NCBI RefSeq assembly: GCF_009765975.1
Contig: NZ_LMUJ01000060.1
Coordinates: forward strand, 103,268 to 167,267
Reading direction: 5' to 3'
Source: Acidisphaera sp. S103
GTDB lineage: Bacteria > Pseudomonadota > Alphaproteobacteria > Acetobacterales > Acetobacteraceae
Length of the DNA: 64,000 nucleotides
In this document: positions 18,388 through 19,739 of the stretch, piece by piece
How the letters are laid out: each line of letters starts with the position of its first letter
Numbering within the stretch: position 1 is the stretch's first letter
Notes under the pieces: generated by a model
Told to the model about the DNA's origin: nothing
Databases searched by the model: none
The model's input: only the letters and a program-made list of their open reading frames with translations
Program-made: the position numbers and the translations under genes

Positions 18388-18623
18388 GGATGTTGTTTCC
18401 TTCCCTGATCGCCTGCGCGAACCGACTAACGAGAATGTCACTTTTCGCGCTTCAATCAGATAAGTCGTTGCTCGTCAAATGGTTCGCTATTCGCAACTGC
18501 CCGGGGTGGGCGAAATCCCTATGCCGTATCCGTGCTGGCGATCCCGCGGCGGGTGGGCCCGTGGCAAAACGGCAACAGGTAGCAGGATCGCCAAAGAAAA
18601 TGCTGCATCGCAGCAAATAGCCC

Positions 18624-18652
18624 TTGCATGCTGCACCTGCGAAGGCCATTAT
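18624..18652 (+). promoter_or_regulatory. Promoter of the sRNA gene
   Basis: TTGCAT (18624-18629) and CATTAT (18647-18652) are separated by exactly 17 bases, a good alphaproteobacterial housekeeping-sigma promoter. Start of transcription is expected near 18659-18661. Confidence 0.65.
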
Positions 18653-18659
18653 AGAACCC

Positions 18660-18739
18660 GCAGACGCGCTACGGCGCACTGCTTTCTTGGACGTTTCCTC
18701 CCTAAACTTCGGCGGTGCCAAAAGCACCGCCGTTTTTTT
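18660..18739 (+). ncRNA. MmgR/alpha-r8 (Rfam suhB-type) trans-acting sRNA
   Basis: Predicted 75-80-nt transcript. A 5' hairpin at 18660-18682 has stem halves GCAG/CTGC and GCGC/GCGC capped by a C(UACG)G tetraloop. It is followed by the single-stranded sequence UUUCCUCCCU at 18694-18703, then a rho-independent terminator. From recall of the literature, that ten-base core is the hallmark of the MmgR (alpha-r8) sRNA family, an Hfq-dependent RNA of about 77 nt in Sinorhizobium meliloti that limits polyhydroxybutyrate accumulation. The CCUCCC core is anti-Shine-Dalgarno-like, so it could pair with ribosome-binding sites. The promoter, length and terminator all agree. A covariance-model search would settle the family; the existence of the sRNA gene is well supported. 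Confidence 0.78.
18710..18739 (+). terminator. Rho-independent terminator of the sRNA
   Basis: Nine-bp perfect stem CGGCGGTGC / GCACCGCCG with loop CAAAA, followed by seven T residues. Confidence 0.9.
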
Positions 18740-18845
18740 GTCCGCCATCCGGTGGTCCGATGGACGCCGAACCGCGCCCCTTCTCCCCGCGGCTTACATT
18801 GCCTGCGCCGTTTTGACAGAATGGAGGCGGCATGGGGGATGACGA

Positions 18846-19739
18846 TTGGACCAGCCGCTACGCGCCACGACACGACCAGCGCGGGCCGCCCCGGATCGGT
18901 TCGGGTGGGGTATCGGCGTCTCCGTCGCGCTGCATGTGGCGGCACTGGTTGGCTTGGCGTTCATACCCCATCACCTGACCCCTGCGACCGAGGCTCCGGC
19001 GGTCGAACTGGTCATGCTGCCGGTCGATGTGGAAACCGCTCCAACCGCGCCGTCACCGGAAGCCACGCCTGCCCCGGAACCCACCCCATCGCCTCCGCCC
19101 CAGCAGGAGGCCCATGTCGATCAACCGCCAATCCCTGAACCGGCGCCGCCGCAAGCCGAACCCGCACCTCCGGAGCCGGCTCTTCCGCCGCCAGTGACGC
19201 CACCACCGACACCGACAGCCGAAGCCCCGCCCCCAGAGCCGATGCCACCCCCGGCTCCTCTCCCTGAACCACCACCCGAACCTCCGCCGCCGCCTCCGCG
19301 CGTTCGGACAATCGTTCGGCGTTCGGCCGTCCCCCCTCACCCATCGCGAGCCCCAACCGCGCCAGCGGCGGAAACCTCACAGCCGCCAGCAGAAGCGTCC
19401 GCCGTCCCCCTGGTATCGCCGGGGCCGCCCGCGTCGCGAGAGGTACCTGCCCGTCTGGATCCCAACTGGCTCGCTGGCGTCAGCCAGTGGCTCCTGGCCC
19501 ACCGTACTTACCCGGAGATGGCTCGGGAACTCGGGCGGCAGGGCACGGTGGTGGTGCAGATCACCGTCGACCCGGACGGGCACGTGCGGGATGTGAAGCT
19601 GATGCAGGGCAGCGGATCGGAGTCACTCGATCAGGCCGCTCAGGCACTGGTGCGGAACGCTCACCTGCCACCGTTTCCGTCGGACATGAAGCTGCCCCAG
19701 CAAACCGTGACGCTGCCCATTCGTTATCAGCTGGAGTGA
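18846..19739 (+). CDS. TonB-family energy-transducing protein
   Basis: 297 residues from a TTG start at 18846, the first possible start after an in-frame stop, with GGGGG a few bases upstream. One N-terminal membrane helix (FGWGIGVSVALHVAALVGLAFI) is followed by a long Pro/Glu-rich periplasmic spacer (about residues 65-160). A TonB C-terminal domain ends the protein (WLAGVSQWLLAHRTYPEMA, GTVVVQITVDPDGHVRDVKL, LPIRYQLE). It transmits the proton motive force via ExbBD to outer-membrane receptors, but neither exbBD nor a receptor is adjacent. Two short Arg/Ala-rich stretches precede the helix, and start assignment is uncertain by a few codons. Confidence 0.85.
   Translation: MDQPLRATTRPARAAPDRFGWGIGVSVALHVAALVGLAFIPHHLTPATEAPAVELVMLPVDVETAPTAPSPEATPAPEPTPSPPPQQEAHVDQPPIPEPAPPQAEPAPPEPALPPPVTPPPTPTAEAPPPEPMPPPAPLPEPPPEPPPPPPRVRTIVRRSAVPPHPSRAPTAPAAETSQPPAEASAVPLVSPGPPASREVPARLDPNWLAGVSQWLLAHRTYPEMARELGRQGTVVVQITVDPDGHVRDVKLMQGSGSESLDQAAQALVRNAHLPPFPSDMKLPQQTVTLPIRYQLE

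Follow-up and report, generated by a model that had tools for sequence, protein, structure and literature searches.

The window, that is, the whole stretch of 64 kb (64,000 nucleotides) of Acidisphaera sp. S103 DNA that was analysed, holds a small RNA gene with a predicted promoter and, upstream of it, a palindrome that matches the consensus operator of PhaR. Downstream of the small RNA lie a tonB-like gene and then the gene for a class I lysyl-tRNA synthetase; upstream, in divergent orientation, are genes for a DUF3311 protein and an SSF symporter. The features of the locus, in window positions, are:

18601-18615, no strand assigned: palindrome TGCTGC-ATC-GCAGCA, a putative PhaR/AniA site by consensus match, 8 bp upstream of the -35 box
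18624-18629, + strand: -35 box TTGCAT, read from the sequence
18629-18643, no strand assigned: degenerate second PhaR-like box TGCTGCACCTGCGAA, seen by eye just downstream of the -35 box and off consensus
18647-18652, + strand: -10 box CATTAT, 17 bases from the -35 box, read from the sequence
18660-18739, + strand: alpha-r8/MmgR-type sRNA of about 80 nt, from the RF00519 match and the folding z-score, with a predicted start
18660-18682, + strand: 5' hairpin H1, GCGC(UACG)GCGC, with a C(UACG)G tetraloop, by folding
18684-18708, + strand: near-invariant stretch of 25 nt, TTCTTGGACGTTTCCTCCCTAAACT, mostly unpaired, from the consensus of 89 family sequences
18694-18703, + strand: 10-mer anti-Shine-Dalgarno core (seed) TTTCCTCCCT, from the sequence
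18710-18739, + strand: Rho-independent terminator, a 9-bp stem at 18710-18732 followed by seven T, from a mechanical terminator scan
18846-19739, + strand: tonB-like neighbour (TonB_C), considered to lie outside the unit, as this adjacency was not found in relatives

The covariance model of RF00519 (suhB/mmgR, "Makes More Granules Regulator RNA") matches 18674-18747 with 54.2 bits (E 2.3e-8), above its gathering cut-off of 41 bits and over model positions 1-77 of 77. No other Rfam family scored above its own cut-off in the 64 kb, and a match to RF02791 (CcsR1) on the opposite strand was rejected at 21.1 bits against a cut-off of 65.3. The window RNA almost certainly belongs to the RF00519 alpha-r8/MmgR family, as the initial annotation had proposed from the letters alone, naming RF00519 as the check; the Acetobacteraceae-like host that it had surmised is indeed a member of Acetobacteraceae.

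Judged by its sequence, 18660-18739 is a complete alpha-r8/MmgR gene. The elements that had been read there at first sight are in place: the promoter boxes are 17 bases apart, the 5' hairpin has its C(UACG)G tetraloop, and the terminator stem is followed by seven T that end at 18739. A length of about 78 nt had been given, which is similar to the predicted size, although the RNA measures 80 nt if it starts at 18660. The predicted RNA folds with an energy of -32.9 kcal/mol (z -4.72), and none of 200 shuffled sequences was as stable. The core had been described as exposed, and this holds in part: the mean unpaired probability of the 10-mer is 0.77 over 90 Acetobacteraceae copies, but in the minimum-energy fold a weak 3-bp helix, GGA/UCC, touches the core UUUCCUCCCU. 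The promoter is absent from the output of a strict sigma-70 scan for 18624-18652, because its -35 and -10 hexamers score under the threshold of that scan. In 27 copies from Rhodopila-type records (see below), CTTG stands at the place of the -35 box in 26, which favours the predicted promoter, and the layout TTG-N18-22-MATTMT is found in 14, or in 21 if the looser CANTNT is allowed.

The host genome (8.37 Mb in 116 contigs) carries a second alpha-r8 copy (L001 1410-1575; G000:C110:314975-315048), which scores 60 bits, is very similar to the window copy upstream as well as within the RNA, and has an operator of its own, TGCTGC-GGC-GCAGCA. It sits between an SPFH/Band 7 gene and a conserved gene that is DUF2076-like by eye, a site that recurs in Rhodopila-type records. 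A third RF00519 match, on the minus strand (L003 1501-1579; G000:C29:287958-288036), has 35 bits and the core CUCCUCCCCCCAAACUUG, and lies just before a small gene with no Pfam match and near an S24 peptidase gene. It was left out of the copy count because it is below the cut-off and in a locus with an S24 peptidase; it may be a mimic carried by a prophage or simply a terminator, and the phage collection gave no match.

When the window-type RNA was searched for exactly in named genomes, 21 records were found, of which several belong to one genome; they are titled Rhodopila (R. globiformis DSM 161 in two cases), Proteobacteria bacterium or Acetobacteraceae bacterium, and the contigs of R. globiformis DSM 161 hold three copies. 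With a slightly shorter query string, 27 copies were counted in these 21 Rhodopila-type records, some of them in tandem. At E<=0.001, RF00519 matches 123 of 150 Acetobacteraceae genomes and 159 of the 289 genomes of the class sample (120 and 126, respectively, above the cut-off), in searches with stricter filters by which weak matches are lost. A search confined to a library of open-access full texts returned no paper on mmgR in Acetobacteraceae or on suhB sRNA in Gluconacetobacter.

The predicted fold of the Acetobacteraceae form differs from the Rfam consensus, in which a hairpin H2, GCCC-UUCUU-GGGC, stands directly before the core. H2 is not formed in the Acetobacteraceae copies, where the mean pairing probability of its 3' arm is 0.01 (90 copies, the host's own included) as against 0.82 in 38 copies from other families, which are mostly top-scoring and thus biased toward intact hairpins. 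Since the window RNA is predicted to fold without H2 and yet passes the RF00519 score, we take the absence of the hairpin as structural variation inside the family. In the consensus of 89 Acetobacteraceae sequences, for entry to which the nine bases TTTCCTCCC were needed and from which four copies of another subtype were excluded, hardly any variation is seen in the stretch UUCUUGGACGUUUCCUCCCUAAACU. This stretch is preceded by the variable 5' hairpin, which was judged by per-sequence folding in place of column-wise covariation, because the alignment does not register there; the H1 region is more stable than its shuffles in the 90 Acetobacteraceae copies (mean z -1.80) and in the 38 others (mean z -1.72). 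Between the window copy and L001 the loop of H1 differs and the stem is kept. The separate subtype, which contains GACUGGCGUUUCC, makes up 4 of 94 Acetobacteraceae copies (L185, L197, L212 and L214); it has a different conserved 5' hairpin that ends with UUGGUCCUCUUUCU, has no exact PhaR box, and is possibly a sibling under other control.

TGCRNYGCASMA, the PhaR consensus that was derived for Bradyrhizobium from DNase I footprints together with related promoters (PMC6201568), has a single exact match in the window, the palindrome at 18601-18615. This palindrome also contains CTGCNNNGCAG, the published PhaR site of Rhodobacter (R. sphaeroides) as quoted in PMC12542648. Several Rhodopila-type copies have, by eye, strings at the corresponding position that resemble the degenerate box TGCTGCACCTGCGAA.

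Operator conservation was scored as an exact match to the PhaR consensus within a stretch of 120 nt upstream of each copy. Copies were accepted on the core string TTTCCTCCC, a T-run and position, and loci that yielded nothing were dropped (3/86 from family genomes with PhaR, 0/7 from family genomes without it, 1/30 from other families with it and 3/8 from other families without it); as the loci came from the upper parts of score lists, well-kept copies may be favoured in the counts that follow. The exact box is present upstream of both copies in the host, once in each, and upstream of 68 of 84 distinct copies in other PhaR-bearing Acetobacteraceae genomes (75 if one mismatch is allowed). It was found with 7 of 8 copies in the seven Acetobacteraceae genomes in which no PhaR was found, and with 19 of 32 copies from PhaR-bearing genomes of other families. 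Where other families lack PhaR, the counts were 0 of 6 copies (four genomes) for the exact box (Fisher p 0.02, uncorrected for relatedness) and 2 of 6 if one mismatch is allowed; two of the three loci dropped from this group, seen with a shorter core string, likewise had no exact box. Control stretches from Acetobacteraceae loci held an exact box in 1 of 769 cases and a box with one mismatch in 36, and under a looser filter the exact box was found with 35 of 44 family copies versus 3 of 846 controls.

Two separate exact boxes precede 30 of the 84 family copies and one precedes 38, while the 16 without an exact box include the four copies of the distinct RNA subtype. A pattern seen by eye in many copies of the wider family pairs a box ahead of the -35 element with a second one close to where transcription is expected to start. 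In the Rhodopila-type records, a set that overlaps the previous one through L287, the exact box is found with 23 of 27 copies; the palindrome arms are largely kept and the three central bases (N3) vary, which is the pattern expected of a protein site.

The host genome has a single gene each for PhaR (PF07879, E 1.9e-30; G000:C33) and Hfq. PhaR (PF07879) was detected in 117 of 150 Acetobacteraceae genomes, the host included, and in 168 of 289 class genomes. Within the family (n=150), 116 genomes have both sRNA and PhaR, 7 the sRNA only, 1 PhaR only and 26 neither, so that 8 are discordant; the corresponding numbers for the class (n=289) are 137, 22, 31 and 99, where many of the 22 rest on weak sRNA matches. 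The family genomes with neither may be one clade, and shared ancestry may explain much of the co-occurrence. The seven family genomes with the sRNA only are drafts of 77-96% completeness and, given that seven of their eight copies keep the box, either the assemblies lack PhaR or the box is read by something else. The host has five phasin matches: L113 and L114 are preceded by two exact boxes each, those of L113 flanking CTTGAC, the sub-threshold L117 is preceded by one, and no exact box precedes L115 or L116.

In S. meliloti, depletion of PhaR raises MmgR, and the shift of an mmgR promoter fragment by PhaR is lost when the palindrome is deleted or changed (PMC12542648); activation of S. meliloti MmgR by NtrC is also reported, in the title of a cited paper. 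The siblings SisA-D of Caulobacter were recovered with Hfq, SisA represses mRNAs via the 10-mer, and a conserved 10-mer core is reported for the family (PMC12559287). The suggestion, made from the letters of the core, that the RNA binds many mRNAs in an anti-Shine-Dalgarno manner agrees by analogy with SisA of the same family.

It is very probable that PhaR controls the window sRNA, with 18601-18615 as its putative binding site. PhaR is a repressor that binds polyhydroxybutyrate (PHB). In the absence of PHB, PhaR would sit on this palindrome, and perhaps also on the degenerate box after the -35 box, and the promoter would be blocked; PHB granules would titrate PhaR, and the sRNA would then be transcribed. 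Hfq would present the core UUUCCUCCCU, which would pair with Shine-Dalgarno regions so that translation of a set of mRNAs is repressed. With good confidence we take the RNA to be a trans-acting alpha-r8 (MmgR/SisA-type) sRNA of the Hfq-dependent, anti-Shine-Dalgarno kind, repressed by PhaR and released by PHB; repression through Shine-Dalgarno pairing is likely, and any particular target is doubtful. Because this switch resembles that of genes controlled by the PHB-granule sensor, the RNA probably links the regulation of other genes to the carbon store.

Like MmgR of S. meliloti, the window RNA is an alpha-r8 RNA of RF00519 with a PhaR/AniA palindrome at its promoter, to which binding is published in that species (PMC12542648). 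Unlike MmgR, it is not predicted to form the H2 hairpin of the Rfam consensus, and the host has two copies above the cut-off where one is reported for S. meliloti (PMC12559287). With SisA-D of Caulobacter crescentus it shares the family, the 10-mer anti-Shine-Dalgarno core, the presence of more than one sibling and an Hfq gene in the genome; however, four TonB-dependent receptors were found in the host and none is established as a target, and the Caulobacter siblings have a sponge, CrfA, whereas the search for a sponge in the host covered core-complementary sites only. The PhaR-controlled phaP promoters of Bradyrhizobium and Sinorhizobium have PhaR boxes around the -35 box, a feature shared by the window promoter, and the host's own L113 and L114 have two boxes each; unlike the phasin promoters, the window promoter has one exact box and drives an untranslated sRNA, not a granule protein.

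The place of the RNA upstream of a tonB-like gene had been put forward as a new context, and the adjacency is real, the tonB frame beginning about 105 bases past the terminator on the same strand. TonB was, however, found in 0 of 71 sRNA loci of relatives (roughly 1.5 kb of flank to either side in the majority) and in 0 of 21 Rhodopila-type records, and neither TonB nor the sRNA core was found upstream of lysS in 29 loci of relatives, 7 of which had less than 700 bases there; a proline-rich TonB may escape tblastn. On these counts tonB was rejected as a conserved partner, and the context looks incidental and so far particular to the host genome. This makes it improbable that the RNA works with its neighbour, either by regulating TonB-dependent uptake or by read-through past the terminator that expresses tonB. 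In favour of such a role, SisA represses TonB-dependent receptors in Caulobacter (PMC12559287), and one receptor of the host, L130, pairs with the RNA around its Shine-Dalgarno region at -26.7 kcal/mol, an energy that none of the 44 background genes reaches; but the other three receptors rank 28, 31 and 42 of 44, and only 6 of 30 loci with receptors of the L130 type, the host's own included, pair better than shuffles (p<0.05). With only four TonB-dependent receptors, a receptor regulon of the size seen in Caulobacter is unlikely. The tonB mRNA itself is not supported as a target (-15.0 kcal/mol; 19 of 44 background genes equal or better), nor are the phasin mRNAs (-13.6, -9.0 and -11.2 kcal/mol, with 21, 40 and 31 of 44 background genes equal or better), in a duplex-energy test with a crude choice of start codons.

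It is also unlikely, though a little less so, that the RNA is a genuine alpha-r8 sRNA whose palindrome is read by another regulator, or whose promoter PhaR activates. PhaR may have a positive role too (PMC6201568), activators can bind in the region ahead of the -35 box that holds the site, and the box is kept in 7 of 8 copies from the family genomes without a found PhaR; however, S. meliloti PhaR represses mmgR (PMC12542648), the palindrome equals the Bradyrhizobium footprint consensus, two phasin genes of the host carry two such boxes each, and exact boxes are absent from the six copies in PhaR-free genomes of other families. Very unlikely is a window copy that is decayed or silent and kept only because L001 works. 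L001 is very similar, occupies a genus-shared site beside an SPFH gene and scores higher (60 against 54.2 bits), but the window copy has intact palindrome arms, promoter boxes, H1 stem, 25-nt stretch and terminator, and the difference between the two H1 loops with conservation of the stem speaks against decay. The DUF3311-SSF neighbourhood recurs beside copies in 3 of the 21 Rhodopila-type records, and the SPFH gene that flanks L001 is found in 10; in one locus, L289, an MFS gene stands between the sRNA and DUF3311.

The PhaR wiring of MmgR was already known from S. meliloti (PMC12542648). What is added here, from comparison of sequences, is that PhaR-type wiring appears common to most of the Acetobacteraceae copies examined and that the predicted RNA fold differs there. 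The family has two reported functions, in rhizobia the control of PHB and in Caulobacter that of nutrient receptors, and the conservation of a PhaR operator in the distant Acetobacteraceae suggests a common logic, namely, that the family reports stored carbon. We lean towards the view that PhaR control of alpha-r8 sRNAs is ancestral in Alphaproteobacteria and not a rhizobial speciality. At least one copy would then serve as the RNA arm of a PHB-status response, with phasin-like wiring, wherever PHB storage and PhaR are kept; lineages free of PhaR would lose the boxes, duplicated siblings, such as the box-free ACUGGCGUUUCC subtype, would escape this control, and Acetobacteraceae would have dropped H2, which would make UUCUUGGACGUUUCCUCCCUAAACU one long open pairing region.

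Several further observations concern the wider distribution of the RNA, its core and its operator. In a genome of the same genus, L071 1526-2115 (G099:C4) is a tandem array of three alpha-r8 copies, each with a PhaR-type box. The family may travel on plasmids: partial plasmid matches to the sRNA region (H1-H12), with 80-97% identity over 21-43% of the query, come from Roseomonas, Acidiphilium, Acidibrevibacterium and one record labelled Acidithiobacillus, and no gene is listed beneath them in a table that does not include RNA genes. The host genome has 11 sites complementary to the core within one mismatch, two of which are the sRNA genes, versus 18 for the reversed pattern, so there is no excess of such sites. 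Of the remaining nine, five are spaced from an open frame as a Shine-Dalgarno sequence would be, and these frames encode Rap1a, DctP and metallo-beta-lactamase fold proteins (by Pfam) and VOC-like and short-chain-dehydrogenase-like proteins (by eye). Listing the open reading frames around eight other full TGCTGC-N3-GCAGCA palindromes of the host genome yielded no assigned regulon gene; these palindromes lie on C6, C40, C52, C83 (two), C85, C97 and at C110:341278.
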